Source: a virus. Taken from it: a DNA stretch of 64,000 nucleotides. Where the stretch lies: IMG/VR virus record IMGVR_UViG_3300047548_000772, positions 62,001 to 126,000 of that record. One strand, 5' to 3'. A program made the position numbers and the translations under genes. Of this stretch, positions 6,346 through 23,327 are shown in pieces. The notes below the pieces were generated by a model that was given only the letters and a program-made list of their open reading frames with translations, was not told the DNA's origin and ran no database searches. Position 1 is the stretch's first letter. Each line of letters opens with the position of its first letter.

Positions 6346-7357
6346 TAGTTACACCAGCTGGCAACCACTTGAAGAAGTTATCGTAGGGCGAGCATACACG
6401 CCTGACTATTTTGATTTTATCGAAAATGCGCAAGTGCGTAACCAACTACAACAAATTCTAGCCGAAACTGATGAAGATTTAAACAATCTACAACGTATTA
6501 TTGAACAATACGGTGCTGTTGTTCGTCGTCCAGATTTACCAAACAAAGACTGGTTTATTGATTCGCAAATTAATTCAGACGGTGCACCGTTGCCTCCGCT
6601 TACTCCACGCGACTGGCAAATTAGTCTTGGACAAAAACTCCTGCGTGTGTTACCAATGACAGAGTTAAATGATATATGTAAACTCTACGGAGATCAAGTT
6701 ATTAACCCACACGGTGAAACATGGGATCCTAACTGTATCCTAAACGGTGCATCAGCAAGTTGTATCGTGCGTGTAGGACGTGACGTATTCTTTGATAACT
6801 CGGATCATTTAAAGCCAGAACAAACTCAATGGATAATCGAAAACTGCTTAGGACCGGAATATCGTGTGCATGAAGCAATCACCGATGGTCACGGCGATGC
6901 TGTATTTGCTATTCTAAAGCCAGGAGTTATTTTGAGCAGCAAGCACGATGTTAACTTAGATCTAGCCGGGGACTTTCCAGGGTGGGATGTATGTAAGATT
7001 TGGGATTCTAGCATTTGGGCTGCTATGGAAGTTGGTAAGTTCAAAGAAGAAAACTTCAACGGTTCCTGGTATGTACAGGGACAAACACCCACAGCAGAAT
7101 TTACAAACTTTGTAGATACTTACTTAAAGAACTGGGTAGGATTTGTATCAGAAACTGTGTTTGATGTTAATTGTTTAGTACTCGATGAAGAAAATGTAAT
7201 CTTCAGTGCTTACAACAAACAAGTATTTGATTTTTGCGCCAAGCACAAGATCAATCCTATTATTGCAGAACTGCGTCACAGTTACTTTTGGGATGGCGGC
7301 GTTAGTTGCTGTACCCAAGACATCCGACGCCGCGGCGGACTAGAGTCTTATCTCTAA
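6329..7357 (+). CDS. Amidinotransferase-like enzyme (guanidino-modifying superfamily), paralogue 1
   Basis: A 342-residue pentein-fold protein. The N-terminal signature WQPLEEVIVGR and the C-terminal WDGGVSCCTQD match the glycine/inosamine amidinotransferase family; the likely nucleophile is C327 and the likely catalytic His is H188 in DGHGDA. Such enzymes move the amidino group of arginine onto an amine, as in creatine and streptomycin synthesis. An agent/ADI-type hydrolase in the same superfamily is the main alternative. It sits last in a plus-strand run after a DegT aminotransferase, which could supply an amine acceptor. Two paralogues lie at 55805 and 62027; this one is shorter and has an SCC rather than an HCV active-site segment. 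Confidence 0.8.
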   Translation: MQPLVNSYTSWQPLEEVIVGRAYTPDYFDFIENAQVRNQLQQILAETDEDLNNLQRIIEQYGAVVRRPDLPNKDWFIDSQINSDGAPLPPLTPRDWQISLGQKLLRVLPMTELNDICKLYGDQVINPHGETWDPNCILNGASASCIVRVGRDVFFDNSDHLKPEQTQWIIENCLGPEYRVHEAITDGHGDAVFAILKPGVILSSKHDVNLDLAGDFPGWDVCKIWDSSIWAAMEVGKFKEENFNGSWYVQGQTPTAEFTNFVDTYLKNWVGFVSETVFDVNCLVLDEENVIFSAYNKQVFDFCAKHKINPIIAELRHSYFWDGGVSCCTQDIRRRGGLESYL

Positions 7358-8160
7358 CTGTTACTACGTTGTAGTAACTTTTCCCAGGTATCGTCAGGAC
7401 CCAACACTGGCAATGGCCAAGCATTTGGGGAATTTGGCGGGAAAGCAACAATACTAAAAATAGCGTCATTGCCAAATTGATTATCTGGGTTATTGTTAAA
7501 GTTTTGTGGGTTGTAATTGCGCACCACACACCAGCCCATTTGATAACCTAGTGCGTCGAGCATATTATACAGCTCAGGAATATTTTCGCTTTCTTGTGCT
7601 TCAAAGTAAATTACAGGCAAATACTTTTTAATAGTTTCTGCTGCACCTTGAAATACGCCCGGTTCGTGTCCTTCAACGTCAATTTTTATTAACCCTGGTG
7701 GCAAAATTTTACCCGCGGTGACCAACGAATCTATAGAATCCATTGCTACTTCAACACCCGTCTTGGTACCAACACGGGCCATACCATAGTTGCCAATTTG
7801 TGTTACATCAATTTCTTCTACTAAGATTTTTCCTGCAGCATTGCTTACTGCTAGATTAAACAATGTACAACGCGGCTCTTCTTGTAGGTTCATACGCAAC
7901 ATTTTATAGTGCTGCGGATTTGCTTCAAAACAATAAACATGCTTGCTACGACTTGCAAATGCACTAGCGTGATAACCTATGTTACTGCCAATGTCATAGA
8001 CCACAGTATCTTCACCAACTAACTGTAGTAGCATGTCTAATTCAACTTGTTGATATTCACCATACAAGCGCAAACTTGCACTGATAATATCGTCCCAACG
8101 ATAAACAATGAATCTATCTCGGTACCTTGTTCGTATTACATCTGTATAATCTAACTGCAT
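7354..8160 (-). CDS. FkbM-family SAM-dependent methyltransferase
   Basis: A 268-residue protein. The SAM-binding core is VVYDIGSNIGYHASAFA, followed by the acidic FEANP at the end of strand 2; later comes LIKIDVEGHEPGVFQGA, the hallmark of FkbM enzymes. Known FkbM members O-methylate sugars and related natural products. Its stop codon overlaps that of the convergent amidinotransferase gene, and its start overlaps the carbamoyltransferase end by 10 bases, so the two are probably translated together. The acceptor is unknown; a sugar hydroxyl would fit the neighbours. Confidence 0.93.
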   Translation of the reverse strand: MQLDYTDVIRTRYRDRFIVYRWDDIISASLRLYGEYQQVELDMLLQLVGEDTVVYDIGSNIGYHASAFASRSKHVYCFEANPQHYKMLRMNLQEEPRCTLFNLAVSNAAGKILVEEIDVTQIGNYGMARVGTKTGVEVAMDSIDSLVTAGKILPPGLIKIDVEGHEPGVFQGAAETIKKYLPVIYFEAQESENIPELYNMLDALGYQMGWCVVRNYNPQNFNNNPDNQFGNDAIFSIVAFPPNSPNAWPLPVLGPDDTWEKLLQRSNS

Positions 8161-9635
8161 ACTCGCACACCATATTTTTCTTCAAAGCGATCGGCATCGG
8201 CACGATCATCAACCATTGGTTCACCGCGGATATTTAGCGATGTGTTTAGTAACATCGGGCAACCTGTTTCTGCATACCACGCTTCTAAGAGTTGTCGGAT
8301 GCCTGATCCACAATCCTTTGGCACAGTTTGTACACGACTACTCCCGTCAACATGAACAATAGCAGGATATACGTCAGGATTCCTACAACGAGCGACTGTT
8401 TGCATATACCTGCTGTGATGCCAGCCATAAGGCATACTGAAGTAATCACTAACATACTCTTCCAGAATAACTGGCGCAAAGGGTCTAAACTTTTGTCTAC
8501 GTTTGATCTCATTTACTTGATCCTTGATTTCTGTACCACGAGGGTCTGCTAACAAACTACGATTGCCCAAAGCACGTGGACCGAATTCGGCGCGGCCGCT
8601 GGCAACACCTACAATCTTATTGATCTTTAATTCTTTAACTAGTTCGCCTACGGGATAAGGGCCTGTGATATCTGTGCCCAAGTAAGGATGTTCCCAATTT
8701 AACTTGCCACCGTGAGCTAAAGCTGCTGCGCCAAGACTTGACCCACAATCGCCTGGGTTAGGCATAATCCAGAAATTACTAAAGAACTTGCCCATGTGCG
8801 AGTTAGCCACACAATTAAGAGCAACGCCTCCCATATACACTACATTCATGCTACGAGTCATGTGCGATGCTCTAAGCATTACGCTATCGACCATTTGCTC
8901 AACAATCTTTTGTGCAGCATAAGCAAGTTCAACATCGCTAAACTGATCTAACCAATTATCAGGTACGCCAATATGGAAGTTCTCTTTAAATCGGCACTCG
9001 GTTATGCTGTCTACTACTAAGTCGTACATTGCACGATAAGCCTTATTGTCACCCCAAGCAGCCATGCCCATAGTAATGTATTCTTCGTCCATTGGACGCA
9101 ATCCTACACGCTTGGTTACTGCAGAGAAGAACATACCTATGCTGTGCGGGTACTTTTGACGCCATAGTAAATGATACTGTGCCCGACCCTTAGGATCATA
9201 ATAAGCATCGTAAATGCTGATTGTGTCGGATTCACCGATAGCATCAATAACAACTACCGCTGCTTCCGCAAATGGCGACGTTTGAAATCCTGCGGCTGCA
9301 TGGCTCTTGTGGTGGTCGCTTGATGAAATTTGTCGCGGGTTAAGAAAATAGTTGCCCAGTTGATCACGTAGGGCTCGCTTAGTCGTCCAGACGTCACTAA
9401 ATCCTTCACCAGATCTAAGCGATCGTAATTGTCTTCGCCACGGTGTTTCATAGTATGCTAAATGTCCTGTATAATAAGGTTCTACTGCATCTAAAATGCC
9501 TGCACACAAATTCGGATCGTTTTTCTTTTTACTAAAACGTTCCGAGTGCCCTGCAAATAGTATGTCGCCCTGCTGGTTAACAACGCTGATACCAGCGTCA
9601 TGAAATCCAGCCGAAATTCCGATTATGTTGCTCAT
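8151..9635 (-). CDS. Carbamoyltransferase, NodU/CmcH/TobZ family
   Basis: A 494-residue enzyme, somewhat shorter than the usual members. The N-terminal Kae1-like half begins NIIGISAGFHDAGIS with His 12, and contains SSDHHKSHAAAG (H108, H109, H112) and the later GVALNCVAN. The C-terminal YrdC-like half has GPRALGNRSLLADPR and RRQKFRPFAPVI. The family uses carbamoyl phosphate and ATP to carbamoylate hydroxyls of sugars, Nod factors and aminoglycosides. The ATG overlaps the stop of the 33-residue gene upstream as ATGA. With the neighbouring methyltransferase it points to late decoration of a glycan or small molecule. Confidence 0.95.
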   Translation of the reverse strand: MSNIIGISAGFHDAGISVVNQQGDILFAGHSERFSKKKNDPNLCAGILDAVEPYYTGHLAYYETPWRRQLRSLRSGEGFSDVWTTKRALRDQLGNYFLNPRQISSSDHHKSHAAAGFQTSPFAEAAVVVIDAIGESDTISIYDAYYDPKGRAQYHLLWRQKYPHSIGMFFSAVTKRVGLRPMDEEYITMGMAAWGDNKAYRAMYDLVVDSITECRFKENFHIGVPDNWLDQFSDVELAYAAQKIVEQMVDSVMLRASHMTRSMNVVYMGGVALNCVANSHMGKFFSNFWIMPNPGDCGSSLGAAALAHGGKLNWEHPYLGTDITGPYPVGELVKELKINKIVGVASGRAEFGPRALGNRSLLADPRGTEIKDQVNEIKRRQKFRPFAPVILEEYVSDYFSMPYGWHHSRYMQTVARCRNPDVYPAIVHVDGSSRVQTVPKDCGSGIRQLLEAWYAETGCPMLLNTSLNIRGEPMVDDRADADRFEEKYGVRVCS

Positions 9636-9734: not shown

Positions 9735-10820
9735 TTACTCTCCTTGAATTATGCTTACTTGACGTGCAATAAAATCTGCATCATTCCAATGATAATTGTA
9801 TGTTGCTGACGCTTGACTAGTCTTTACTGAATATACATCTAAATATCTACTTAGCGTATTCCAAATGACCCGGAAATCATTGGTACCAAATGTTCTAATC
9901 AAATCTACTTGCCCGATTTGTGGATGGCCGATTGTTAAACTCTTATCCTCTGGATCGAATCCATTGGCTGTTAACCAATTGCGAAAATCTTCTAACTTTT
10001 GTTGCTGCCACGCAAACTCTCCAGGATTGCGTCCCCATTCTATGTCAAAGTCGCCAGCGGCTTCTGTTTGACTGCGCAGCGTAGAGCTGACTAACTCACC
10101 CAATCGGCTGTCGCGACCTTCATCATTAAACACTTCCCAGTGGTGTTTGCCTACTGCTTTGTTAACTCCAACAAATACACCACCGAGATCGCGATTAATT
10201 GTGTTAATACCAAACAATTCGTAGTCCTCGGGTTCTAGTACAAACCTAGGAGCACGTAACCAACACATTAGTTGACTAGGGCGTACCCATTCTGGTGCTT
10301 CAATTTCTTTGCGATAACTTAGTGCCCAAGACTCAAACTCGTGACATAGCAAGTTTAATTGACGTATGTGCCAGCGTGTTTGCGGATCTGCTTGTGTATA
10401 ATAAGGACTAATGGCGCCGCTGACGCCTTGTAAATCTTCAAAGTAACGATGCAACCAATTAAACTTATCGTGTACTAAATTTCTACCAACAGTTCTATTA
10501 CCCACTGGATCGTCGGTAATGGTGTTGTCCATTGAAAAGTAGTCGTCGATTGTGTATCCCAAATTGGCTGAATTAATTGCAGCAATACTACGGTTAATTT
10601 GATCTAATATATAAGGACCATTGCGCCCGGACTCTACAAATCCAAAAAAGCAATAATTCTTTTCTAAATGATAATTGTTGACTAATAGATTATCTAGCGC
10701 AGCAAGCCATTTACGACTTAATGAATTATCCCAAATGTCTAAATGTACAGTAAAGAACTCGTTGTTTACAGAATCACGTAATTGGATTTCAACTTTATCT
10801 AAGATTTTGCCACCACTCAT
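9735..10820 (-). CDS. Phage protein of unknown function, linked to the radical SAM block
   Basis: A 361-residue soluble protein that I do not recognise. It has no membrane segment, signal peptide or nucleotide-binding loop. It is rich in Asn, Asp and Trp, and its C-terminal half carries LGGVFVGVNKAVGKHHWEVFNDE and LTIGHPQIGQVDLIRTFGTNDFRVIW. It starts inside the end of the first radical SAM gene (26-base overlap), and its own last codons hold the ribosome binding site of the 33-residue gene. The tight coupling suggests it works with the modification enzymes, for example as a substrate-binding or scaffold protein, but nothing in the sequence shows that directly. Confidence 0.75.
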   Translation of the reverse strand: MSGGKILDKVEIQLRDSVNNEFFTVHLDIWDNSLSRKWLAALDNLLVNNYHLEKNYCFFGFVESGRNGPYILDQINRSIAAINSANLGYTIDDYFSMDNTITDDPVGNRTVGRNLVHDKFNWLHRYFEDLQGVSGAISPYYTQADPQTRWHIRQLNLLCHEFESWALSYRKEIEAPEWVRPSQLMCWLRAPRFVLEPEDYELFGINTINRDLGGVFVGVNKAVGKHHWEVFNDEGRDSRLGELVSSTLRSQTEAAGDFDIEWGRNPGEFAWQQQKLEDFRNWLTANGFDPEDKSLTIGHPQIGQVDLIRTFGTNDFRVIWNTLSRYLDVYSVKTSQASATYNYHWNDADFIARQVSIIQGE

Positions 10821-12087
10821 AAACTTCTGCGTCTTCCTTTAAGATGTCACTCATAGTATAATTATCTTCGCGGATACGCTCGATGTTAGAATTGCGTTCT
10901 TTGGCTGCTAGCAAAATAGGCTTATAAGTGTCAGGCCATTGTTCTTCAAACGTAGGACGGCTTTTTAATTGTACCAACACATCACGCATAGGACCACTGG
11001 TACAGTCTGTGATTAGCTTGTCTAAGATTCTATTTAATATTGGACGCGGTAAAGCCAATGGGCTCATAATAACTTCTGGACTAAAACTAAACACAACTTT
11101 GGGCAGAATATCAACATTTAATTCTTCAGCTAATTTTTGTATATTGTTGACTTCAAACAAGCCAGGTAACGTTAGCGTAAAATCAAGTCGCATTTGGCGG
11201 CGGTGACGCTGGTGTGCTACACCTTGCTTAAAGTTTTCCAACCATTCAGCATAGTTTAATCCTGTGCGTATGTATTCGCCGATGCGCCCGGTGCCGTCAA
11301 TTGACGCACATATTTGCCAATCGCGTAAATGATCTAATACATCGCGGAATAAATTAATACCACGATAATCAACGCGACTTAAATTGGTATTGTAACGAGC
11401 ATATACACGATATCCATCGCCTAATTCAACAATGCGCTGCATATAACGCCAGTGTTGTTCAAACATCAATGGTTCGCCGCCGACCCAATATACTTCTTCT
11501 ACTCGATGTTCTTCTACTGCTTGAGCAAACTCTGCTTCAATTTGTGTGTCTTGAAATGCAGTAATTTGTTGTTTGATTTCAGGACGCATCCAGTTGTTTT
11601 TAGGGTCAGACCAGTCAACAGAATTGTGCTGGCGTTCTTCGGATTCCCACGAACTAGATAGCATATCGCCGCACATGCGACATTTAAAGTTACATAAGTT
11701 AGAGAAGCGATAATCCCACGACACAGGTTTAGCTGACGTATATCCTGTGTTATCTGTGGCAGCCATTAAATCATCATATTTGTGTTTAAACAAATGCCAA
11801 AAGTAACTACGGTAAACGTCAGTGTTTAACAACTTACTATTACATACATCACATTCGGGCAAGGTTTCGCCAGCCATCATACGGCGGCGCACTGACTTCA
11901 TGTGCTCAGAATTCCAATGTTCATCTAGTGTTATAGGTATGTATTTGCCTGTGCCCGCGGATGTGTCAATATACTGACGAAAGTTTTGTGCTGGTTCTCG
12001 TGATGCACAGCACATTCTGCGCTCTGTTTGCGGCGACAAATATGTGTGAGTCCACGGTGCTAGACAAAGCGTATCAGGTTTTGACAT
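10795..12087 (-). CDS. Twitch/SPASM-type radical SAM protein 1
   Basis: A 430-residue radical SAM enzyme. The [4Fe-4S]-SAM cluster ligands are C132, C136 and C139 (LCNFKCRMCG), and the SAM-contact motif is VGGEPLM. Before the barrel there is a cysteine-rich region, CLAPW (C8), CC (26-27) and CDVC (79/82), which may bind an auxiliary cluster as in twitch or SPASM proteins. It shares this plan with the next two genes, so the three look like tandem duplicates. It overlaps its upstream neighbour by 14 bases. Radical SAM enzymes of this kind modify peptides, sugars or cofactors; the substrate here is unknown. Confidence 0.92.
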   Translation of the reverse strand: MSKPDTLCLAPWTHTYLSPQTERRMCCASREPAQNFRQYIDTSAGTGKYIPITLDEHWNSEHMKSVRRRMMAGETLPECDVCNSKLLNTDVYRSYFWHLFKHKYDDLMAATDNTGYTSAKPVSWDYRFSNLCNFKCRMCGDMLSSSWESEERQHNSVDWSDPKNNWMRPEIKQQITAFQDTQIEAEFAQAVEEHRVEEVYWVGGEPLMFEQHWRYMQRIVELGDGYRVYARYNTNLSRVDYRGINLFRDVLDHLRDWQICASIDGTGRIGEYIRTGLNYAEWLENFKQGVAHQRHRRQMRLDFTLTLPGLFEVNNIQKLAEELNVDILPKVVFSFSPEVIMSPLALPRPILNRILDKLITDCTSGPMRDVLVQLKSRPTFEEQWPDTYKPILLAAKERNSNIERIREDNYTMSDILKEDAEVYEWWQNLR

Positions 12088-13288
12088 AGTTAATAGCTCG
12101 GGCTAGATCGGGCATTACTTCGGCTAAGTTTTGGTTGCGTTTAAAGTCTAAATCATTGGCATGCATACGCAATAATTGACCGTCTAAACTATTGCCATTG
12201 TTCATAAAATCAATAATGCGGTCGATTTCGCGTTGATATTCATCGGGGAACACACACATACGCAAATAATCGGCAATAATTTCCTTAGCATGCACAGGCA
12301 ACGTAGCAATGCTAAAATAATATGCATCGTGTAACATATTCCAATAGACAAAATCAAAACCTGTGTGCTTGATCCACCAGGCAACATCTTGCAAATACAT
12401 GACGTTAAACACATTAACAGTACAACACACTTGCAATGATATATTTGAATTTCGGCTGCGCATTTCTTTGAACTTTTGCACGTTAGCAGTTACTTCAAGC
12501 CAATTAGCATTGGTGCGTTGATATTCGAATCGTGCCCCGATATCATCAATGCTAAATGCAATTTCTACATGCTTAAACGCACGCCAAATGTCTTCGGCAA
12601 ATTCAGGAAACTGTGTGCCGTTGGTATTATAATGAATTTCAATTTGTTCTGCATAACCACGCTGTACTAGTCGTGCTAGTAGTTCAAAGTGTTCTTGAAT
12701 CATAAATGGCTCGCCGCCGGTGAATTCAATATAACGAATTTCGCTCATTGATTCATCTAATTGATCCCAAAACTGCTGGCTGTTGCGTGGCCAAGCACCG
12801 TCTTGCAGCATTTGATAATGAAATGAGTTTTTCTTTTCTTCTTTGTTTATAATAAAGTTTAATTCTTCTGTGGCAAATTGACTGCTAGACCACGATCCGC
12901 ATATACGACACTTTAAATTACAAATATTACCTAGCTTTAAATCCAAGAACATCAAAGGTTTGGCGTCAGCAGTCCATGGTTCGTCGTCGATCATGTGCTT
13001 TAAACGATCTAGTGTGTGCATACGCTTTGATGTCCGGCCCGAACGCTCTTCATTCCAGCAGCGACGGCATGTCTGCGGTTGCTTACCAGCTAAAAAGTCT
13101 TCACGTAGTTGACGCATGTGTGCAGAGTTTTGTATTTGGTCAAAACCTGCAGTATGCAATTTAAACTTTTCGCCTGTTTCATCGACTACTTCGTCGATAG
13201 CCAAGCAACATGGGCGCACAGTACCTATAGGACTGGCTTCTAAGCTAACCCAAGGTAGTACGCAGAATTTTTCGTGTGGTATTTTCAT
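12074..13288 (-). CDS. Twitch/SPASM-type radical SAM protein 2
   Basis: A 404-residue paralogue of the neighbouring genes. Cluster ligands are C123, C127 and C130 (NICNLKCRICG); the SAM motif is FTGGEPFM. The N-terminal cysteines C9 (FCVLPW), C27/C28 and C74/C77 (CRRC) repeat the layout of protein 1. The central barrel includes YNTNGTQFPE, a strand-loop typical of the family. The ATG shares an ATGA with the stop of the upstream gene. The differences between this protein and its two relatives are spread over the whole length, so these are old duplicates rather than a recent amplification. Confidence 0.92.
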   Translation of the reverse strand: MKIPHEKFCVLPWVSLEASPIGTVRPCCLAIDEVVDETGEKFKLHTAGFDQIQNSAHMRQLREDFLAGKQPQTCRRCWNEERSGRTSKRMHTLDRLKHMIDDEPWTADAKPLMFLDLKLGNICNLKCRICGSWSSSQFATEELNFIINKEEKKNSFHYQMLQDGAWPRNSQQFWDQLDESMSEIRYIEFTGGEPFMIQEHFELLARLVQRGYAEQIEIHYNTNGTQFPEFAEDIWRAFKHVEIAFSIDDIGARFEYQRTNANWLEVTANVQKFKEMRSRNSNISLQVCCTVNVFNVMYLQDVAWWIKHTGFDFVYWNMLHDAYYFSIATLPVHAKEIIADYLRMCVFPDEYQREIDRIIDFMNNGNSLDGQLLRMHANDLDFKRNQNLAEVMPDLARAINYVKT

Positions 13289-14547
13289 TTTAATCGAATT
13301 AACTCCGGGAGTGCGTGTAATACATTTTCGTTACGCAATGCATCTAGCGTTTGTGTACGTGACCAAAACTCAGGCAACAAATGACTGTTGTCTGTGCTAT
13401 CCATAAACTTAATTGCTGATTCAAAGCCTACTGTAGCACGTTGTAGCGGATCCTGTGGGCGCAACCATTCTAAGTGTTTTAAATATTTTTCTCGCAGTTG
13501 ATCTTTGAATTCTGGTGTGGCAATGTCAATGCGATAATATGCAGGATCTTGTAATATGTTTACGTTTAAATCCTTGGGTTCAATTAATCCCAAAGATGCC
13601 CACATACGATGAAAGTCTGGCAAGTGCCAAGCATTCATTATGCTTAGTGTAGGACTAATATAAAAGTCAACATTAGGGCACACATCTATCATTTCTATGC
13701 GATTTGCTTCAACCTTGGCCCATTCCGACCCCTTGCGAATATATTCAGCACGTGGGCCGTCGGCATCTAAACTTGCGCCCACTGCTACAGAATTAAATAG
13801 TTTCCAATATTCAAATACACTACGATCTTTTAATTGCGTGTGCGTGAAATTGGTATTATAAATTAGGCGTACATCAAAGCGTTCGCGGCGCACCAATTCT
13901 TCTAGAATATTGTAGTGTTCTTCCATTAATAATGGCTCACCGCCAGCAAAGTATATTTGCTCTACGTAGTCTAAGTGTGGTTCTAGTTGTTCCCACATGT
14001 CTGTTTCCCAACGTCCTGCGTAGTTCAATGGCTTATTCTTTGATTTCCAATCGCCACCAGCTAGTGCTGCTTGATCCTGGTACCAAGAACTAGAGAAGAT
14101 ATGTCCACAACTACGGCAGCTTAGATTACACAGGTTAGAGAAACGTATGTCCCAGTAGGTTAATTCAAATGGGTTTGCTTCGAGTTTTTTGATATGGTGT
14201 CCGTGATGTTTATTAGCACTACGGCGACCCGAAAAGAATCCAGCGGCTTCTTGTTCATAGCAACGTGCGCAAGCAGGGTTAGGAGTTTCTGTGAGCATGG
14301 CTTGGCGCAGTTGTGCCAATGGCTGATCGGTCCATATTTGTTCAAGTGTTTTTTCGCGGCAGTTTCCTACTTGTCCTACGCCCATTTCGGCATGGCAACA
14401 AGGATACGCTTCGCCGGTGGGATATGCATGAATGTGTATCCAAGGATAAATGCAAAACGTCTTAGAATCTTTTAATAAGAATTCTTCACGTTCTGTAAGT
14501 TCTATGGGCTTGACTAAGTCTGCGGAATTATACTTGTATTGACTCAT
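13285..14547 (-). CDS. Twitch/SPASM-type radical SAM protein 3
   Basis: A 420-residue radical SAM protein with ligands C140, C144 and C147 (LCNLSCRSCG) and the SAM motif FAGGEPLLM. A 30-residue N-terminal extension precedes the cysteine pattern C32 (FCIYPW), C50/C51 and C93/C96 (CARC). Near residues 109-119 a His-rich stretch (SANKHHGHHIK) could bind a metal; its paralogues lack it. It overlaps the upstream gene by 20 bases. It belongs to the same subfamily as proteins 1 and 2. Confidence 0.92.
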   Translation of the reverse strand: MSQYKYNSADLVKPIELTEREEFLLKDSKTFCIYPWIHIHAYPTGEAYPCCHAEMGVGQVGNCREKTLEQIWTDQPLAQLRQAMLTETPNPACARCYEQEAAGFFSGRRSANKHHGHHIKKLEANPFELTYWDIRFSNLCNLSCRSCGHIFSSSWYQDQAALAGGDWKSKNKPLNYAGRWETDMWEQLEPHLDYVEQIYFAGGEPLLMEEHYNILEELVRRERFDVRLIYNTNFTHTQLKDRSVFEYWKLFNSVAVGASLDADGPRAEYIRKGSEWAKVEANRIEMIDVCPNVDFYISPTLSIMNAWHLPDFHRMWASLGLIEPKDLNVNILQDPAYYRIDIATPEFKDQLREKYLKHLEWLRPQDPLQRATVGFESAIKFMDSTDNSHLLPEFWSRTQTLDALRNENVLHALPELIRLK

Positions 14548-15883
14548 AGAAATCTTTTAATCCTGGGAATGTTGCTGTAAAATCTTTATTACGGCGTTGA
14601 TCATATTGTTGATAAAAATGCTTAAAATCATTGTGTAATTTAGGCATTTCAAATGTGTCTGCATGTGGTGTTTTTACTACGTCTAAGTAATCAATTAGTC
14701 GTTGTACTTGATTTAATTCCATTTCATGTAGCAAAGGATTGTTGCAATTAGCATCGTACCAACGCTGTAGGTTTTGTCCACGTTCTGCACGAATTTCGTC
14801 AGGCAGGACCAATGGGCTTTGGAAACTTGGAAAACGTAGTATGTTTAGTGTAAATGTAGGGAAGTCGCGTCCATATTCGGCTTTGAAGTCTAAACACCAA
14901 TTTAAAAAGTCTGTCAATGATTCTAAGCATAGTGCATTAATAGTGCACATAACATGCAAGCCGCGTAGTTTGTTTGACTTGGCTAGTTTGTGCATATTAG
15001 ATTCCCAAGAATCCCAGTGCAATCCGTCGCGAATATATTCAGCGTGATTGAACATGCTTTCATTGCTAGTATATAAATCTACTGTTAGTCCTGTAATGCT
15101 GTCTAAAAAGCGATCAACCTCGACATCTGTGCCCAAGTTACTGTTAATTGCTAGTCGTGTATTAGTGCGTCCTTGATTATCTCTGAACCAATCTAGTAAT
15201 TTCCAAGTGTGCCCAGACATCAGCGGCTCGCCACCGGTAATTCTGAGTTCTTGGAGTGTTCTGTGTAGGTCTGATTCCCACCAGGCAAAGAACGCTTCGA
15301 CATAGGGATTGGTTTCACCATAAGCATATAGCTGCGAGGAATCGTGAGGATGTGTAAAATGGTTACGCCCGTCGCTAATAAGATTAGCATAAGGCCCGTT
15401 ACGATTAATATCTTTGACCCAAGTACTAGAGAAAGCAGGATTACAATAGCTGCAAGCGAATTGACAAGTGCGATCAAACGCAATCTCAAGGGTTTGTAAG
15501 TTAACATCCTGTTCTGCAGGTGTATTAAATGCTGTATCAAGATCTTTGTCCGAATAAATTACTGTTTTGTAAACGCGATCCGAAATGTTGTCGCGGCCAA
15601 TATCTTCAATTTTCCAACAATAACTGCAACCCGCAGGACGTTCTCCACGTTGCATCATTGCCCGTTCTGATTTCTTTTGATCAGTATTGTGCAGTTCCTT
15701 AGGGTTAGCTCTAACTTTATCAATGTTCACTAAGTGAGGAAGCGGATGGTGGCAACTTGTAGTCATGCCAGATCCCAACCAAATAGTAGCATTGTACCAT
15801 TTGGCTGCACAAAATGATTCCGACTTTATGTCGATAACACGGCGTTTGTATTCTAAGTCTGATTCGTTGTTGAGTCTAGGCAT
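14528..15883 (-). CDS. Twitch/SPASM-type radical SAM protein 4 (second subfamily)
   Basis: A 451-residue radical SAM protein. Ligands are C140, C144 and C147 (TCQFACSYCNPAFSSTW), and the SAM motif is ITGGEPLM. The N-terminal cysteines are C25 (FCAAKW), C44 and C86/C89 (CSYCW). The segment LHNTDQKKSERAMMQRGERP is nearly matched in the protein at 16852-18285, so these two form a separate pair within the five. Its last residues, ATFPGLKDFYES, also match the end of that partner. It starts just inside the neighbouring glycosyltransferase gene (8-base overlap). Confidence 0.92.
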   Translation of the reverse strand: MPRLNNESDLEYKRRVIDIKSESFCAAKWYNATIWLGSGMTTSCHHPLPHLVNIDKVRANPKELHNTDQKKSERAMMQRGERPAGCSYCWKIEDIGRDNISDRVYKTVIYSDKDLDTAFNTPAEQDVNLQTLEIAFDRTCQFACSYCNPAFSSTWVKDINRNGPYANLISDGRNHFTHPHDSSQLYAYGETNPYVEAFFAWWESDLHRTLQELRITGGEPLMSGHTWKLLDWFRDNQGRTNTRLAINSNLGTDVEVDRFLDSITGLTVDLYTSNESMFNHAEYIRDGLHWDSWESNMHKLAKSNKLRGLHVMCTINALCLESLTDFLNWCLDFKAEYGRDFPTFTLNILRFPSFQSPLVLPDEIRAERGQNLQRWYDANCNNPLLHEMELNQVQRLIDYLDVVKTPHADTFEMPKLHNDFKHFYQQYDQRRNKDFTATFPGLKDFYESIQV

Positions 15884-16883
15884 AAATGAATTTTAAGAAA
15901 TCGTTGTTAAACTGTGTTTGTCTATTACTATGTAGTTCAAATAAGTGCTGCTGGTTATATAAACGTGTTTCGGTTACTTCTTGCCAGAATTTAACTAAGT
16001 TTTGTTGGCACAACCACGTGACTTCGGCAATAATTCGATTTAATCTAGTTTGGTTGTCTTCAATTAAATCAAAAGATTCGTCAATTACGCTATTATACGA
16101 CATAAACCCCAGGTTGCGCAAGTCCCGATAAAATCCATAATTGGCTGCTACAATAAAAGGATGCGCTGCTAGTATAGGTTTATAAATCTTTTCTGTGCGA
16201 AAGCTATATGGGTATTCAACTACGGTTTCAGATACCAAGCTAAACCAAGTGTCTTGATATTGTTTAGGATAAACCATTCCGTCTATCCAAGCGGGTTCTA
16301 CGTCAGGATCGTAACCCTGCGGCAACAAATGTGGCTCAAAGCCTTGACGTGTGTATTCGCAATTAAACGCAGGATGCCCCCAGGTTGTTTGGCTTTCTCG
16401 TGCTGACCATAATGCACGATCTAATAGGCCTTGATGTTTTAATTCGGTAATTAAATATCTACGATGCGGGCGTATTTTTCTATTAGTAAAAAGAAATGTA
16501 AATGGTCTATTATTTGTATAGTCAATATCAGGGCATTGATTACCATTGGAATTCACAGTCATTGTTAAAAAATGCTCTGAATTAAGATTAACTACACTAG
16601 CATCGCCGCCGGTGATAAATCTCAGCAGCCCAGCATCAATCCATTGCTGATACTCTAAACGCTGTACTGTGTGCCATATGGTAGCGCAACTTTCGTCAAC
16701 CTTTTCTACACAAACAACACTGCCCGACTGTAAGCTACGCTCAACTATAGCCCAATATGAGTTTAGTGTGTTGACACTAATAACATAATGCCCTGGGTGT
16801 GCTGCAATAGTATCAACGCGACTGTCGGGATATGTTAGTGCTAGCCCAGGCTCAACTGTTATTGGCATAGTACTTGCACTCAT
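15876..16883 (-). CDS. GT-B-like glycosyltransferase, TEK..KPI family (copy 3)
   Basis: A 335-residue protein with the C-terminal block FRTEKIYKPILAAHPFIVAANYGFYRDLRNLGF and then VIDESFD, clearly related to the three other TEKTFKPI proteins here. It lies between radical SAM proteins 4 and 5, overlapping both, so it should be made in step with them. Two ATG codons are possible (16883 and 16868); the first is given. A basic patch TNRKIRPHRRYLI near the middle corresponds to similar Arg-rich segments in copies 1 and 2. Its placement suggests the radical SAM pair and a glycosyl transfer act in the same pathway. Confidence 0.6.
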   Translation of the reverse strand: MSASTMPITVEPGLALTYPDSRVDTIAAHPGHYVISVNTLNSYWAIVERSLQSGSVVCVEKVDESCATIWHTVQRLEYQQWIDAGLLRFITGGDASVVNLNSEHFLTMTVNSNGNQCPDIDYTNNRPFTFLFTNRKIRPHRRYLITELKHQGLLDRALWSARESQTTWGHPAFNCEYTRQGFEPHLLPQGYDPDVEPAWIDGMVYPKQYQDTWFSLVSETVVEYPYSFRTEKIYKPILAAHPFIVAANYGFYRDLRNLGFMSYNSVIDESFDLIEDNQTRLNRIIAEVTWLCQQNLVKFWQEVTETRLYNQQHLFELHSNRQTQFNNDFLKFIYA

Positions 16884-18285
16884 CCCACCAGGCTTTCATT
16901 TCTGGGAATGTTGCTAAAAAGTCTGTGCCGCGGCGGCGATCATGTTCAGCGAAGAAACGATAAAAATCTGCTTTGTTGCGCTGTACATACGCAGGATCTA
17001 ACTTGGCACCATCGCGCATCCAAGCAATGTCACGATCTAGCCTAGCAATTTCATAGTCCTTAAACCCTTTAAAGCGAGTTTGTTCGGTTTCTGCATTTTT
17101 AAGCATATACACCCAAACTTCTTCTAAATGATCTGCATAGGATTCTGGCAGTAATTGCATACTTTGCCAAGCGGGTGTGCGTAGTACAGGCGTGTCAAAC
17201 CACACACGTTGATAATGATTAGAATAAATCTGACGCAAGCCTAGTATAGCTGTCATTAGATATTCAAGTGTGCTTACGCTTAAATTATTCATTGTAATAA
17301 TAAACGTAATCGAACTGCGTCCGGGAATTTCTGTTAAAAATTGATTAACACGATCCCATAATAGCGCAAAGTCTAATCCATTACGAATATATTCCGCACG
17401 TTCAAACATAGCATCTAAACTAACATATTGCATAAAGTGTTCAACGTGTGGGTCATTGTCGTCGCACAAGCGTTTAACATAGGACTTGTACTTTTGCCAC
17501 AGGCTTTCTTCTACTGAAAAATTACTGGTTACATTTAAATGTAACTTGGGATTGTGATTGGCCAGCACATAATCAAACACACGATATGTATTTTTATCCA
17601 TTAATGGCTCACCACCAGTCATGCGGAAATGTTCTAACTGTGGATAAAGCTCGGGCCACCACTGCCAAAATGCTTCTACATAAGGATTATGTTCTCTATT
17701 AGGTATTGGGCGGCGCTGCCCAGTAAAATAACCGGGATCATTATGAGGAGTGGAAGTAGGAAACGCTCCTTCACGCTGAGCCTCATCCATCCACGAACTC
17801 GAGAACTGAGGGCTACAGTAACTACAACGTAGGTTGCAAGCATAGTTAAAATTAACTTCAACATAACTGGGGATAGCATCTTCGTCTCCTGTGCTGTGTG
17901 CTATTTGATCAAAACTAGGTGCAGCCCAAGGTTCGCCCGAACGATAATGACGGTCCGATAATTTGCCATTATCTTCCATAGCCCAACAGTAACTACATTC
18001 TGCAGGCCGGGTTCCTTGTAACATTAACTTACGTTGCGACTTTTTATATTCAGTATTGTGTAATGCGCTGGGTTTACGCTGTATTTCTTCTACGGGTATA
18101 ACATGCAGTGGAGGATGATAGCACGAGTTATTCATGCCCGTGGTTAAATGTAAACTAACTTGCTTCCATTTGGCCAAGCACAAACTCGGACTAACTGCGT
18201 CTAGTTTTTCCTTGATTATTTCTGCATCACTTAAAAACTTTGATTTAAAGTCCTGTGTAACTTCATCGCCCTTGTTATTATTCAT
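16852..18285 (-). CDS. Twitch/SPASM-type radical SAM protein 5 (second subfamily)
   Basis: A 477-residue radical SAM protein. Ligands are C150, C154 and C157 (ACNLRCSYCSPQFSSSW) and the SAM motif is MTGGEPLM. N-terminal cysteines are C36 (LCLAKW), C55 and C97/C100 (CSYCW), as in protein 4. The ATG at 18285 was chosen; it overlaps the upstream stop by 8 bases, whereas an in-frame TTG at 18315 gives a longer overlap and a weaker start. It differs from its partner mainly by an N-terminal extension of about 10 residues and by an insertion before the barrel. Confidence 0.9.
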   Translation of the reverse strand: MNNNKGDEVTQDFKSKFLSDAEIIKEKLDAVSPSLCLAKWKQVSLHLTTGMNNSCYHPPLHVIPVEEIQRKPSALHNTEYKKSQRKLMLQGTRPAECSYCWAMEDNGKLSDRHYRSGEPWAAPSFDQIAHSTGDEDAIPSYVEVNFNYACNLRCSYCSPQFSSSWMDEAQREGAFPTSTPHNDPGYFTGQRRPIPNREHNPYVEAFWQWWPELYPQLEHFRMTGGEPLMDKNTYRVFDYVLANHNPKLHLNVTSNFSVEESLWQKYKSYVKRLCDDNDPHVEHFMQYVSLDAMFERAEYIRNGLDFALLWDRVNQFLTEIPGRSSITFIITMNNLSVSTLEYLMTAILGLRQIYSNHYQRVWFDTPVLRTPAWQSMQLLPESYADHLEEVWVYMLKNAETEQTRFKGFKDYEIARLDRDIAWMRDGAKLDPAYVQRNKADFYRFFAEHDRRRGTDFLATFPEMKAWWDECKYYANNS

Positions 18286-18736
18286 GTGAGTTTGTTCCGA
18301 GACGGTTAAGGTCAAATTGACTTTGATTCTTTAACATATAGCGCATTGGATTGTTTTCTGTTAAACACATTTCAATCGTACCGTTAAATCCCCAATAATT
18401 TTCGTGTGTGATTTCACTGTGATTATCACGGCGGCAACTAAAGACCTGATCTATTAGATCAATGTGTAAAGGAAAATTGTTTATTTTGATTCCTGTAATT
18501 TCAATCGCTTTGTCTTTGGTAATTGTGCCAGTGGCGTCAATTTCCATGTCGTTTTTATTTTTATTACTGACTGTAATTTTTAGTGTAGTCGGCCAATTTA
18601 CATCAAATGTAACAGTTGATGGTCCTTCGGGAAAATTATTGTTGCTGTAAATTTCTTGGTCGTCGCTACAGATTAACAAATGCATTGATCCGTTGCAATT
18701 TGTAGAATTAACATCAAAAGTAATTGTGGTTTTCAT
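18278..18736 (-). CDS. Small beta-rich protein of unknown function
   Basis: A 152-residue soluble protein placed between two radical SAM genes, sharing an ATGA with the upstream B12-type gene and overlapping the downstream one by 8 bases. The first half alternates hydrophobic and Thr/Ser/Asn residues (TVTFDVNWPTTLKITVSN), as in beta-sandwich or carbohydrate-binding domains. The second half has HENYWGFNGTIEMCL. No catalytic motif is seen. It may be a binding partner or a substrate of the radical SAM enzymes; that idea rests on position only. Confidence 0.75.
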   Translation of the reverse strand: MKTTITFDVNSTNCNGSMHLLICSDDQEIYSNNNFPEGPSTVTFDVNWPTTLKITVSNKNKNDMEIDATGTITKDKAIEITGIKINNFPLHIDLIDQVFSCRRDNHSEITHENYWGFNGTIEMCLTENNPMRYMLKNQSQFDLNRLGTNSHE

Positions 18737-20145
18737 GATGACAATTCTTTATGTGCTATACCTAGTGTGTCGTTGTTGCCCGACGTCGTCGGAATATTTA
18801 GATCCTTTAAAAGGTCCTTGAGTTCTTGTGCATATTTTATACGATCTTGAGTTGTTACGCAAGTAGTTGGTGTTATCCAAATAGTGGGTATTGATCCCAC
18901 TGAAATACCATATTCCTTTTGCTTTTTATCAAGTTGCGTATTTGGTAATATTGCTGCCAAAGAAAAAACTACTTGCGATACAGTATTGCGGGCGTATTGT
19001 TTTCGGTCCTTGAACCATTGTTTAGTGAATTCAAAGTCTTCTTTAGTCTCGGTTGGGTATCCAACAATTAACAATAACAGCAGTGGCACCGAATACTTTT
19101 GCGCCATTGCTAAATGATAATCAATTGCAGCATTGGTAAAGTTTTTACCTAGTGCTACGCGAACTTTTTCAATTACGCTTTCTATGCCAAGTTGTAAAAA
19201 CCCATTGGACTTTTTAAGTTTTTTCCAAAATTCTTCTGGGTGCTGCTGTTGGTTTCTAACAATAAAATATCCATCCCACGATATTTGCTGGTCAGGGTGT
19301 TGATCGTTGTACTCACAGATAAAATCCAATAATAGTCGAAACTCTTTCATGTTACCATTGGTCAAACTATTGTAAAAAAAGAATTTACGGATATTGTAGC
19401 GTTTAATTTGTTCGACCATTTCTGCAATAATGTTATCTGCAGTACGATATTGATATTTTTTCCAATGCTCAATTACATCGCAGAATTCACATGTGCGCAC
19501 ACACCCGCGGCTATCACATATTGGAATTCCTTGTTCTTTGTAATTGTCAAAATTGTAATCGTCAAAATCCGGATAAGGCAGTTGGTTAAGATCGCGTATA
19601 GGTTGCCACGCTGCTGAGTTAATTCCAATGTAGTTTAAGTTGTCTTTAAGGTACTCAATAATACTGTATTCACCGTCGCCGTTGATGTAATCGCTGATAT
19701 ACCCGTGACTCTTTAACATTTCGGCATAACTCATTGATGAATCTGCAATAAAGTTTTTAATACCGCTGCCGCCGATTACTATCTTAAGTGTAGGATTAGT
19801 ATATGATAAGTGATAGCATAGCCACAATCCAAAATATTGTGTGTCTTGAGTTAGAAAACTTAACCCTAGCACATGTGGGTTTACTTGTGTAATTCTATCT
19901 ACACAATAGTCTAACAAATCACCTATTTCTTGTTCAATGCCCGGGGAAAACTCTTGCTCCTTAAGGAACTTTTCAAGATCTTCGCGACGCGGACTTTGCT
20001 CGATTTTATTCATTACTTCGATGTTCAGATCAATGGCTTGAGCGTCGAAGCCGCTGGCTTTTGCGCAGGCTTTTAATAGCGCAGGAGCCAAAATAGGTCT
20101 TTGCGTTATAGTTCCTGGAACAGAAGCAAATAAAATATCAATCAT
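18733..20145 (-). CDS. B12-binding-type radical SAM protein
   Basis: A 470-residue protein with two parts. Residues 1 to about 170 look like a cobalamin-binding Rossmann domain: PxLAPALLKACAKASGF, then IVIGGSGIKNF and NGDGEYSIIEYL. The classic DxHxxG cobalamin-binding motif is not evident. The radical SAM core follows with C215, C219 and C222 in SRGCVRTCEFCD; later segments GIESVIEKVR and LLIVGYPTETKEDFEF are typical of this class (as in BchE, MiaB-like and other B12 radical SAM enzymes). Such enzymes often methylate unactivated carbons or rearrange rings. It follows the glycosyltransferase gene at 20155 after a 9-base gap. Confidence 0.9.
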   Translation of the reverse strand: MIDILFASVPGTITQRPILAPALLKACAKASGFDAQAIDLNIEVMNKIEQSPRREDLEKFLKEQEFSPGIEQEIGDLLDYCVDRITQVNPHVLGLSFLTQDTQYFGLWLCYHLSYTNPTLKIVIGGSGIKNFIADSSMSYAEMLKSHGYISDYINGDGEYSIIEYLKDNLNYIGINSAAWQPIRDLNQLPYPDFDDYNFDNYKEQGIPICDSRGCVRTCEFCDVIEHWKKYQYRTADNIIAEMVEQIKRYNIRKFFFYNSLTNGNMKEFRLLLDFICEYNDQHPDQQISWDGYFIVRNQQQHPEEFWKKLKKSNGFLQLGIESVIEKVRVALGKNFTNAAIDYHLAMAQKYSVPLLLLLIVGYPTETKEDFEFTKQWFKDRKQYARNTVSQVVFSLAAILPNTQLDKKQKEYGISVGSIPTIWITPTTCVTTQDRIKYAQELKDLLKDLNIPTTSGNNDTLGIAHKELSS

Positions 20146-20154
20146 TTATTAAAC

Positions 20155-21081
20155 TTACCAACCTTCGATACTTCTAATAACGTCTATTTCGCGTGTCATA
20201 ACACCACGATTGTGCCAGTTGCTCCGATAATGATGCTTAAAGAAAGCACTTTGTTCTGCTAGTAGCATAGACATAGGCAAGTCAAGTTGAATATGTAACT
20301 CGTCGGCTACTGTGTTTGCTACTAATTCTGGTTGCGAGTCTTTGACAGTTAACCATAGTTCTTGTAACTTATCAAAGTTTTGTACCTCGGTATAATCCCA
20401 GTTTGTAAGCATAGTCATGTATGTGCCTTGGCGTGCGCCAGCAATTGCCCACATACCAAAATCCACATCTGCGCCTACGTTGTGCCAAATTGTTAAATGA
20501 TCTAGATTGCGCTTATGTACTAAGTCTTTGAACTCTGTTTGATTAGGTTTACGACCTCGATCTAAGCACATCTTGACGCCTTCGCGGAATCCTGCACGCC
20601 AAGCCTGGAACGCTGATCCATTAGGATATGTAGTTGAATAACAATCATGCATGGGCCAGTATAACGGATCGAAACAAAACTCCACTACAGTTTCGCTGCG
20701 TCCATCGGTATTTTCATGTGTGCGCATGTTATTGACAAACTCACGTGTCCAAGAACTTATACCACCGTTGCCGTACATTAGACCATTGATGTGATTACGA
20801 GCACGCCAACGTAGTGTTGCCTTTTCCCAGGATTCATCTGGAAACTCTAAGGTCAAGTTAAAGAAACTTTCGTCGGGTATGTTATCACCATCAATTAAGA
20901 TAAAACGTTCTGTGTCGGACGCTGCGGCTGCTGCTTTGTGTGCTGCATCGGATCCTTTGACACCATCTACACGTTTGGCCCAAGGTACCATATTACGAAT
21001 ACGCACCCAAAATTCTTCCTTTTGTGGTTCATCGTAGCTTAGGTAAATGCAATCTAAATCTGCTATATCAACTTGCTTCAT
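20155..21081 (-). CDS. GT-A-like glycosyltransferase with DGDN motif
   Basis: A 308-residue protein. Residues 39-67 read VDGVKGSDAAHKAAAAAS and then ILIDGDN, a DxD-type metal/nucleotide-sugar site (64-67) as in GT-A enzymes. The following WRARNHINGLMYGNGGISSW is the relative of the HAKNPVNGLEYG segment in the protein at 2449-4065. It is therefore the likely active member of a pair whose other member has lost DxD. It overlaps the next gene by 14 bases. Donor and acceptor cannot be predicted. Confidence 0.7.
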   Translation of the reverse strand: MKQVDIADLDCIYLSYDEPQKEEFWVRIRNMVPWAKRVDGVKGSDAAHKAAAAASDTERFILIDGDNIPDESFFNLTLEFPDESWEKATLRWRARNHINGLMYGNGGISSWTREFVNNMRTHENTDGRSETVVEFCFDPLYWPMHDCYSTTYPNGSAFQAWRAGFREGVKMCLDRGRKPNQTEFKDLVHKRNLDHLTIWHNVGADVDFGMWAIAGARQGTYMTMLTNWDYTEVQNFDKLQELWLTVKDSQPELVANTVADELHIQLDLPMSMLLAEQSAFFKHHYRSNWHNRGVMTREIDVIRSIEGW

Positions 21082-21415
21082 AAGTTATCTCTGCTTTCCA
21101 GTAAGTTTTGTTAGGATAGTCTTTGCTGACAATAATAGTAATATCATCGGCGTAGCATGCATAGTCACCCGACTCAGCGGGCTTTAATTTCCAACTTTGC
21201 GGTACGCTTGTGTATATAATGCGACCATCGCGCACCACAGCGTCATATCGCATTTCAGCAAATGTTTGCCGATCAACAACAATAAAGTTGCCAGGAAGGT
21301 CGTCCATTGTGTAACATATAATTGTACCATCGTCATTGTAGTACAATCTATATTCTAGTCGTTGTTCCGGTTGCGACCAATCAAACTCTGCTAGTGCTTG
21401 TAAGAAGGGATCCAT
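21068..21415 (-). CDS. Small protein of unknown function
   Basis: A 115-residue protein beginning MDPFLQALAEFDWSQPE. The ATG at 21415 gives a 35-base overlap with the upstream gene; a start at 21466 would overlap by 86 bases and seems less likely. The body is beta-rich with many Tyr and Asp residues (RLYYNDDGTIICYTMDDLPG) and ends with TYWKAEITYEAS. I recognise no domain. It sits between two transferase genes, and the close spacing means it is co-expressed with them. Confidence 0.7.
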   Translation of the reverse strand: MDPFLQALAEFDWSQPEQRLEYRLYYNDDGTIICYTMDDLPGNFIVVDRQTFAEMRYDAVVRDGRIIYTSVPQSWKLKPAESGDYACYADDITIIVSKDYPNKTYWKAEITYEAS

Positions 21416-22205
21416 AATGTTTTTCCAATATATGTGCAAGAGCTTTTTCTTGATAATGCCATGCACCTTGTTGTTCTACTGTGTTAATGCGCACACGACC
21501 CTGATCCAATTCCCATACGTATTCTGATGTCCAAGGACGTATGTCTGACTTTAAATAATTGACCTGTGGTTTCATATGTATGATACTAGGCCAAGCATCG
21601 GGTAGTGTTACACGTTCTACGCCCATGTATTTGGCAACCATGGCATAAATCATGTCCGTGTTAGCAGGCACGTTGTCACAGAACTTTAGTGTTTTACGAA
21701 CTTCGGTCCATTGCTCAAAGAAGGTCTGCACTAGGTTGAAGAACTCCGCTGCTGTGCGACTAAGTCGCCAATATGTAATTGCATTGTACACATCGGGCAG
21801 ATCATTATCATCAAACATGCGTCGATATGCTCGACACTCACTAACATCATTTAAGTAGTTACGCATACCCCGGCTAATAACTACGTCGCGGTGCTCAAAC
21901 CATGACCACCAATGAGCAATGGATTCTGTAATTACCATGTCGGCTTCTAGTTTAATAGTTTCGCGGAACGGGCTGGCAGCAAACACTTGCCAGTCGTTGT
22001 GCCATCCGCCGACATCGCCGTATGGTAATGGCTTAACTAAATCAAATACTGGGTCAGTTTCTGTGTCGTTGGTTACTAGACAAATTTTGCAATCAGGCAT
22101 CCAATAACGTAGGCTTTTAGCCAGTGCTCTGGCACAAGCAAGATAGTCATCTTGGCCGTTGTTGCTGGCTAGGATTAAGTATCCACGTTCAAATTCTACT
22201 GCCAC
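21381..22205 (-). CDS. GT8-like glycosyltransferase A
   Basis: About 274 residues. The N-terminal part, GYLILASNN followed by DYLACARALAKSLRYWMPDCKICLVTND, is the sugar-nucleotide-binding layout of GT8-like GT-A enzymes; KLEADMVI (about 87-89 for EAD) takes the place of DxD. No ATG exists near the expected start. GTG at 22205 is given, TTG at 22217 is also possible, and both overlap the upstream gene. Its neighbour at 22189 is a relative with a true DTD motif. Together they could build a short sugar chain. Confidence 0.7.
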   Translation of the reverse strand: MAVEFERGYLILASNNGQDDYLACARALAKSLRYWMPDCKICLVTNDTETDPVFDLVKPLPYGDVGGWHNDWQVFAASPFRETIKLEADMVITESIAHWWSWFEHRDVVISRGMRNYLNDVSECRAYRRMFDDNDLPDVYNAITYWRLSRTAAEFFNLVQTFFEQWTEVRKTLKFCDNVPANTDMIYAMVAKYMGVERVTLPDAWPSIIHMKPQVNYLKSDIRPWTSEYVWELDQGRVRINTVEQQGAWHYQEKALAHILEKHYGSLLTSTSRV

Positions 22206-23010
22206 AGATTTTTCCAAAGTCAGGTTTATTCATTACATGTAAGTCTGTATTAGACAATATCATGCGTTGATGACGTTCTTTAAACTCTACCATGCGTACA
22301 TAGTTAAGTTGAAACTGATCATCGTCTAGTTGATTTAGATATACATCATAAAAACTTGTTAACAAAGGCCAAGGAATACTAGGCACAGCGTTAGGTAAAT
22401 GTCCGTATAATGTGCTTAGTGCAATACTAATGGCGTAGTCATTGCGGTAAGGTTCTTCTTTGAATTTGTACAATCTGCTATAATGATAATAGTTGTTCTC
22501 TATCATATTCATCATAGCAAATGTATCTTCTGCTAGTCGGCTGCGCTTGAAATAAAGCACCGTTGCCCACCACATGGGAAATTCCACAAAGCCAAATCGT
22601 GTATCGATGGCAAAGTTTTCTCGATCTGTTACGTCTAGTACATAACGATGGCACAGTAAATCTTGTCCAACGTCAAACAATACTTTTAAACGATCGCTAG
22701 CAACAATGTAATCTGTATCTAAAACAAGCGTTTCATCGTATGGACTAAATGCATAAGCATTATGGCGCCCACAGTTGTACCAATGTGCGCTAGAATCGGC
22801 ATTCATATGATCGTATTTGCGTGTTCCGCCAGACTTTGATTCAGTGACAACAACGTTATCAAACATAGAGGTATCCTCGGGAGGATCATTTGTTACTAAC
22901 GTTGTTGGCAACCCTAAATGACGTTCAATGCGAGGTGCTGACCACTGTGCTTGACTAACATAGTCAACCTTGTCATTGTTAAATGCAAAAAGTACTGCGC
23001 CCTTGGTCAT
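22189..23010 (-). CDS. GT8-like glycosyltransferase B
   Basis: A 273-residue GT-A-like protein. It begins MTKGAVLFAFNNDKVDYV, followed by VTND (39-42) and the metal-site motif LVLDTDYIV (DTD 98-100). The ATG at 23010 shares an ATGA with the stop of the upstream 106-residue gene; this short overlap decides the start over a longer frame that opens at 23067. The C-terminal part lacks any extra domain. It is the better candidate for an active transferase of the pair. Confidence 0.75.
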   Translation of the reverse strand: MTKGAVLFAFNNDKVDYVSQAQWSAPRIERHLGLPTTLVTNDPPEDTSMFDNVVVTESKSGGTRKYDHMNADSSAHWYNCGRHNAYAFSPYDETLVLDTDYIVASDRLKVLFDVGQDLLCHRYVLDVTDRENFAIDTRFGFVEFPMWWATVLYFKRSRLAEDTFAMMNMIENNYYHYSRLYKFKEEPYRNDYAISIALSTLYGHLPNAVPSIPWPLLTSFYDVYLNQLDDDQFQLNYVRMVEFKERHQRMILSNTDLHVMNKPDFGKICGSRI

Positions 23011-23327
23011 CGTTGACGTGCTAATTCTTCGTGTTCGACTAACCAGGCATTCATTTGCTCTTGCCATATTTGCGATGCTTTGTCAAACAACTCTCGAGGC
23101 ACTACTTTTACAGGTGTGTCGTACAAATCTAAAAGCACAATGGCGGGTAGCCATTCGTCGCAAAGGTGTAAGGTAGCCATTAATTCTGGGCCTGCTCGCC
23201 ACATTCCACCAGCATGGGCAAATACCATTTTGCTGGCATACTTTTCTTTGAGTAGTTTCTTTTGCGTAGCGTGGTCAAAACGGCTACGTATTTCTTTAAC
23301 TAGAGTATCTGGATTAGACATATTCAT
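23007..23327 (-). CDS. Small conserved-type phage protein of unknown function
   Basis: A 106-residue protein and the first gene of the modification block after the terminator. It contains RSRFDHATQKKLLKEKY and FAHAGGMWRAGPELMATL, then VVPRELFDKASQIWQEQMNAW. Proteins of this pattern are, from memory, common next to tail-fibre genes in T4-like cyanophages, where their role is not known. ATG 23327 has a second ATG two codons later; either could be used. An imperfect GGA precedes the start. No catalytic motif is visible. Confidence 0.75.
   Translation of the reverse strand: MNMSNPDTLVKEIRSRFDHATQKKLLKEKYASKMVFAHAGGMWRAGPELMATLHLCDEWLPAIVLLDLYDTPVKVVPRELFDKASQIWQEQMNAWLVEHEELARQR

Follow-up and report, generated by a model that had tools for sequence, protein, structure and literature searches.

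The 64,000-nucleotide stretch that we analysed (the window) covers positions 62001-126000 of the 192-kb virus record IMGVR_UViG_3300047548_000772 (G000), and its minus strand carries five tandem radical S-adenosylmethionine (SAM) genes, here named R1 to R5. The record encodes a baseplate wedge, a hub/lysozyme, virion structural proteins and a late sigma factor, and therefore belongs to a large T4-like myovirus; it holds ten radical SAM matches. For each of the five genes we list the score against NF033640 (N_Twi_rSAM, twitch domain-containing radical SAM protein; curated cut-off 170 bits) and the support for its clade in a 62-row tree, given as bootstrap/Shimodaira-Hasegawa approximate likelihood-ratio test:

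10795..12087, minus strand: R1, N_Twi radical SAM protein with CLAPW..CC..CDVC..CNFKCRMC; 287 bits; own clade, 100/100
12074..13288, minus strand: R2, N_Twi radical SAM protein; 336 bits; clade 100/96
13285..14547, minus strand: R3, N_Twi radical SAM protein; 374 bits; clade 94/99
14528..15883, minus strand: R4, N_Twi radical SAM protein; 296 bits; clade 100/99, sister to R5
16852..18285, minus strand: R5, N_Twi radical SAM protein; 306 bits; clade 93/90

All five exceed the cut-off as full-length members of the family, bearing out a sequence-only reading of the window that had placed five overlapping radical SAM genes here; Pfam alone recognises them weakly. The end given for R5, 18285, is its ATG start, and the mechanical open reading frame (ORF) begins at an upstream TTG, 18315. 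The reading frames of R1-R5 overlap between neighbours, which fits a single transcript. The motifs that had been described are likewise correct: R1-R3 carry CxxPW, CC and CxxC, and R4-R5 carry CxAKW, SCxHP, LHNT..KKS and CSYCW, in each case N-terminal to CX3CX2C. By BLASTP, the resemblance is well beyond chance: R4 matches R5 with E = 6e-65, and R1-R3 match one another with E = 2e-25 to 6e-39.

Scanning IMG/VR with R5, R3 and an alignment of R1 and R3 found core orthologues at 224 viral loci; a profile built from R1-R5 and distant members was too diverse for a collection scan, and the R1+R3 profile was taken instead. These loci were selected by similarity to R1, R3 or R5, which does not imply five genes in every relative. 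The cysteines of CX3CX2C and of the N-terminal C..C(C)..CxxC arrangement are 100% conserved in all five genes: 8 of 8 cluster cysteines are invariant in R1 (n = 126 orthologues) and 7 of 7 in R4 (n = 161), as are those of R2 (n = 139), R3 (n = 165) and R5 (n = 154). The GGE of the SAM-site GGEP motif is also kept across R1-R5. From these invariant residues, each protein is predicted to hold a SAM-cleaving [4Fe-4S] cluster at CX3CX2C and an N-terminal auxiliary cluster. Pfam SPASM is above cut-off in R2 and R3, slightly under it in R1, and was not found in R4 or R5. With all sites intact, we reject decayed or chance paralogues.

In the 62-row tree, with which a 138-row tree agrees, each of R1-R5 forms one group. 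The sequence-only reading had divided the five into two subfamilies; R4 and R5 are indeed sisters (100/98), but R1-R3 make up three distinct lineages rather than one subfamily, and R3, which of the five lies closest to single-copy proteins from Bacteroidota, Elusimicrobiota and other taxa, joins bacterial proteins. From the tree we also reject recent tandem duplication within this phage as their source; by their sequence relationships, R1-R5 are five separate, old orthologous groups. Relatives of all five lie in one locus (L182) of Bacteriovoracaceae bacterium UBA6144, in a different order and with extra copies; with rsfS, obg and rplU as neighbours, this locus is chromosomal, and the R3-like copy there branches as sister to the phage R3 group, not within it. 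The groups therefore predate the lineage of this phage, and genes have passed, in one direction or the other, between phages and Bdellovibrionota.

Complete five-gene loci number 183 in IMG/VR (141 distinct sets, 137 after near-copies were merged), and all 183 run R5-R4-R3-R2-R1, with an extra copy in a few. The order is thus conserved in other phages; like the search for lost site residues, this check did not refute the sequence-only interpretation. A gene is missing despite room in only two of the 224 loci: in L036, R4 is divided over two ORFs; L310 has no separately recognised R2 but an R3 ORF of unusual length (2.6 kb), which may be an R3-R2 fusion. Three more divergent, phage-like contigs from marine metagenome-assembled genomes (MAGs; L176-178) have R5-R4-R3-R1(-R2), one of them ending after R1. 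The description of the set as one phage operon was therefore too narrow, given these contigs and the Bdellovibrionota chromosome with all five groups.

The set lies near tail genes, and around it we found a conserved block, S - g23 - g22 - g21b - g21 - g20 - [slot] - R5 - [glycosyltransferase slot] - R4 - R3 - R2 - [slot] - R1 - g10 - carbamoyltransferase, which, by pairwise identity, is a constant core (R1-R5 and g20) with variable ends. A fourth phage-like MAG contig, L252, combines g23-g22-g21b-g20 with a single N_Twi gene. The four MAG contigs are binned into MAGs of Betaproteobacteria, Pelagibacter, Verrucomicrobia and Rickettsiales, yet resemble phage in gene content, a caution for host claims. 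The constancy of the core bears on the least probable of the explanations that we weighed, in which R1-R5 are unrelated accessory metabolic genes stored together by chance, with no common substrate: their old divergence and separate bacterial relatives, and the coming and going of extra radical SAM genes in the slots, would suit it, but the five groups keep one order in 141 distinct sets while slot genes vary, and all five recur in one bacterial locus. The other genes of the block, as they stand in the window, are:

8151..9635, minus strand: O-carbamoyltransferase (NodU/CmcH type), after g10 in most loci; Carbam_trans_C 168.9 bits, Carbam_trans_N 106.2 bits
9735..10820, minus strand: g10, conserved protein; model pLDDT 87, pTM 0.86
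15876..16883, minus strand: glycosyltransferase-like gene of the R5-R4 slot, variable; homologue recognisable there in about half of the 183 complete loci
18278..18736, minus strand: g18s, small accessory protein; in one other locus only (L158)
18733..20145, minus strand: B12-binding radical SAM gene, accessory, between g20 and R5; Radical_SAM 51.8 bits
20155..21081, minus strand: g20, divergent GT2-like (GT-A) glycosyltransferase; among the block's most conserved genes
21068..21466, minus strand: g21, small conserved protein; position kept in nearly all loci
21381..22217, minus strand: g21b, glycosyltransferase-like by motif; conserved position, no Pfam family
22189..23067, minus strand: g22, distant paralogue of g21b (BLASTP E 4e-4); conserved position
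23007..23327, minus strand: g23, small conserved protein; conserved position, also in a bacterial locus (L395)
23402..24331, minus strand: S, Thr/Ser-rich virion-protein-like gene; candidate substrate

At 66-74% for R1-R5 and 72% for g20, mean pairwise identity exceeds the 49% of the slot glycosyltransferase and the 47% of S. In g20, mean column identity reaches 74% over 15 diverse orthologues; the window protein had no Pfam match, Glycos_transf_2 included, and a bacterial relative with a double g20 scores 29.8 bits for that family against a cut-off of 23.3. S adjoins g23 in 173 of 174 loci. Threonine and serine make up 33% of S and 30 +/- 2.4% of its homologues, against 9-21% in the other window proteins tested; S had no Pfam or PHROG match. 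A PDB fold search with the g10 model gave no match better than E 1, and its ten BFVD matches are all uncharacterised phage proteins; a second copy of g10, 21% identical, lies at L175:1263-2108 in the same phage record. A glycosyltransferase had been noticed inside the R4-R5 pair: an ORF does lie there, but with no Pfam match above cut-off, no PHROG match and no PDB sequence match, and its name therefore derives from motif resemblance.

The conserved block on both sides had gone unmentioned in the sequence-only reading, as had the B12-type gene, a sixth radical SAM gene, and two more in the window. We rejected the B12-type gene as a core member, since L158 is the only other locus with a close orthologue. 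A second copy of it, 29% identical, lies at G000:37087-39210 (L169:17087-19210) in the same phage record. The two further genes, at 54877-55803 and 58772-59806, are in the replication region, interleaved with SbcCD-like genes; the latter has a C-terminal SPASM-like domain, and relatives of the former occupy the g20-R5 slot in other phages.

Our favoured reading, which we hold tentatively, is that R1-R5 are five non-redundant enzymes that jointly tailor one surface glycoconjugate, in the phage most likely on S or its kin. R1-R5 would make C-H modifications on a peptide or sugar, as five distinct steps or sites, and g20, the variable glycosyltransferases and the O-carbamoyltransferase would add or decorate sugars. 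The likeliest acceptor would be the product of the adjacent Thr/Ser-rich S, or another virion protein akin to it; the pathway would then serve to finish the surface of the virion. We infer the joint pathway, its glycoconjugate product and its acceptor: the glycan link is supported by the company that the genes keep, the flanking block is retained with the five-gene set, and position and composition point to S. Successive steps on one substrate or parallel modification of several sites had been suggested before; five non-redundant enzymes kept together would fit that suggestion, but their sequences are compatible with either mode.

SPASM/twitch enzymes often act on peptides, and the block holds two small conserved ORFs, g23 and g21. 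We therefore weighed a pathway like those for ribosomally synthesised and post-translationally modified peptides (RiPPs), in which the radical SAM enzymes would process g23, g21 or g18s as a small peptide or protein, for release or for a role in infection. The best family for the B12-type protein is TIGR03975, a RiPP C-methyltransferase subfamily (E 6e-20, below cut-off), which would suit such a pathway; against it, the overlapping or abutting genes leave hardly any space for a separate precursor, and library scans matched no RiPP recognition element or precursor family. We consider a RiPP-like pathway quite improbable.

The joint tailoring of a glycoconjugate draws further support from bacteria, where g20 is linked to N_Twi genes independently of phages. 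Typical bacterial N_Twi neighbourhoods showed no consistent partner family, and the search was therefore redone with g20 and g10 profiles, which found partners. Among 129 genomes of the order of UBA6144, N_Twi_rSAM is present in 63, with as many as 12 copies, and in none of 14 control genomes. All nine genomes with g20 are N_Twi-positive (hypergeometric P 0.001), as are 19 of the 20 with g10 (P 3e-6), both P values treating genomes as independent and ignoring phylogeny and genome completeness. In several of the genomes that bear g20, 48-78 nt separate it from an N_Twi gene. One Bdellovibrionota genome (G061; L395:9389-13797) has S-g23-g22-g21b-g21-like-g20 with N_Twi genes beside pheT/trmD, which may be a phage remnant, that is, a domesticated piece of phage, or a donor locus. 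In an Oligoflexia genome (L341:11390-13294), a radical SAM/SPASM-like protein is fused to a g20-like domain, among further radical SAM genes. Separately, an uncultured Elusimicrobia MAG contig (L189:586-13725) has tandem large ORFs that seem to be fusions of TPR-like repeats with N_Twi radical SAM domains.

Other bacterial g20/R5-like loci hold GT2 enzymes and a flavin amine-oxidase-type enzyme, and one also has DegT and epimerase genes of the same kinds as in the window, where the following further genes were identified:

392..1420, plus strand: NAD-dependent sugar epimerase/dehydratase, near the module; Epimerase 151.7 bits
1356..2492, plus strand: DegT/DnrJ/EryC1 sugar aminotransferase, near the module; DegT 211.1 bits
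2449..4065, minus strand: protein whose C-terminal part is g20-like; 46 bits there with the g20 profile
7354..8160, minus strand: FkbM-type methyltransferase, accessory; Methyltransf_21 61.3 bits; full-length homologue in 12 loci

The main rival to our favoured reading starts from this company. An O-antigen-like polysaccharide of the host envelope would be remodelled in infection, for example to exclude competing phages, with the radical SAM enzymes acting on sugars or nucleotide sugars and S a mere neighbour. The epimerase, DegT and carbamoyltransferase genes and several glycosyltransferase-like genes nearby would serve such a role, and the bacterial g20/R5-like loci resemble polysaccharide clusters; the same role has been proposed for glycosyltransferases of the pelagimyophage host recognition cluster, where radical SAM cassettes also occur (PMC7029224). 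However, genes that modify a host surface should diversify along with the host, whereas the radical SAM genes and g20 are strongly conserved across many phages, and the block is fixed beside the virion-type gene S. We therefore regard remodelling of host glycan as unlikely, if well ahead of a RiPP-like pathway.

Several observations also weigh against the tailoring of a glycoconjugate on S. Neither g10 nor g20 is detectable by profile search in UBA6144, and therefore neither is an obligate partner of the five-group set; most bacterial N_Twi genes sit among unrelated genes, without S or g20. Searches of the PDB with single proteins gave no matches, and profile matches there extend no further than the core plus a portion of the N-terminal domain; the fold matches of g20 are mostly GT-A or nucleotidyltransferase, none of them significant. 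High Thr/Ser content may be normal for a beta-rich fibre protein, and we know of no reaction or substrate for N_Twi_rSAM. A more specific version of the favoured reading is somewhat less probable: a new protein-glycoconjugate maturation system, common to large aquatic phages and Bdellovibrio-type bacteria, in which the five radical SAM enzymes, the GT2-like transferase and g10 would attach a group bearing several modifications to a virion protein rich in Thr/Ser.

That marine T4-like phages can have multiple radical SAM genes is already known. The environmental viral genome TARA_ERS488813_N000010, like ours a large myovirus, has 12, a count given in the context of Fe-S metabolism, in a passage without orthologous groups, order or partners (PMC5332604). 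In pelagimyophages, glycosyltransferases and radical SAM cassettes lie beside tail-fibre genes in the host recognition cluster, which is described as hypervariable (PMC7029224), whereas here the radical SAM core and g20 are fixed and the slots alone vary. The multi-copy N_Twi loci of Bdellovibrionota share with the phages all five groups in one locus (L182), and g20 and g10 in the same bacterial order, but differ in gene order, have extra copies and usually lack the S-g23-g22-g21b block. NF033640 itself, of which R1-R5 are full-length members, names no reaction; what is added here is five fixed orthologous groups that make up a single syntenic set together with g20, g10 and S. Open-access papers on N_Twi, jumbo-phage or Bdellovibrio radical SAM proteins, searched mostly by title and abstract, yielded no functional study; within this limited search, the fixed set of five, the genes that partner it and the counterpart in bacteria appear to be new.

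Radical SAM enzymes perform chemistry that few other enzymes can, and natural selection has held the five-gene set in one order in well over 100 distinct uncultured aquatic phage contigs, which points to a product of importance to these phages; as far as we found, nobody has identified that product. Together with g20, g10 and S, the bacterial counterparts offer handles for finding the substrate and the first NF033640 reaction, and the shared set, in pointing to gene exchange between phages and Bdellovibrionota, suggests a possible host. Among 50,697 phage records, neither g20 nor g10 had a match, and only Vibrio phages K566 and K567 hold N_Twi genes. As in our set, several NF033640-type genes lie close together there (in a 255-kb phage record), but at about 20-24% identity they are distant, falling outside the R1-R5 groups on long branches, and neither g20 nor g10 was found in these two phages. 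K566 (L319) is nonetheless a named phage, with its N_Twi genes annotated partly as hypothetical, and a possible cultivable model for the family.

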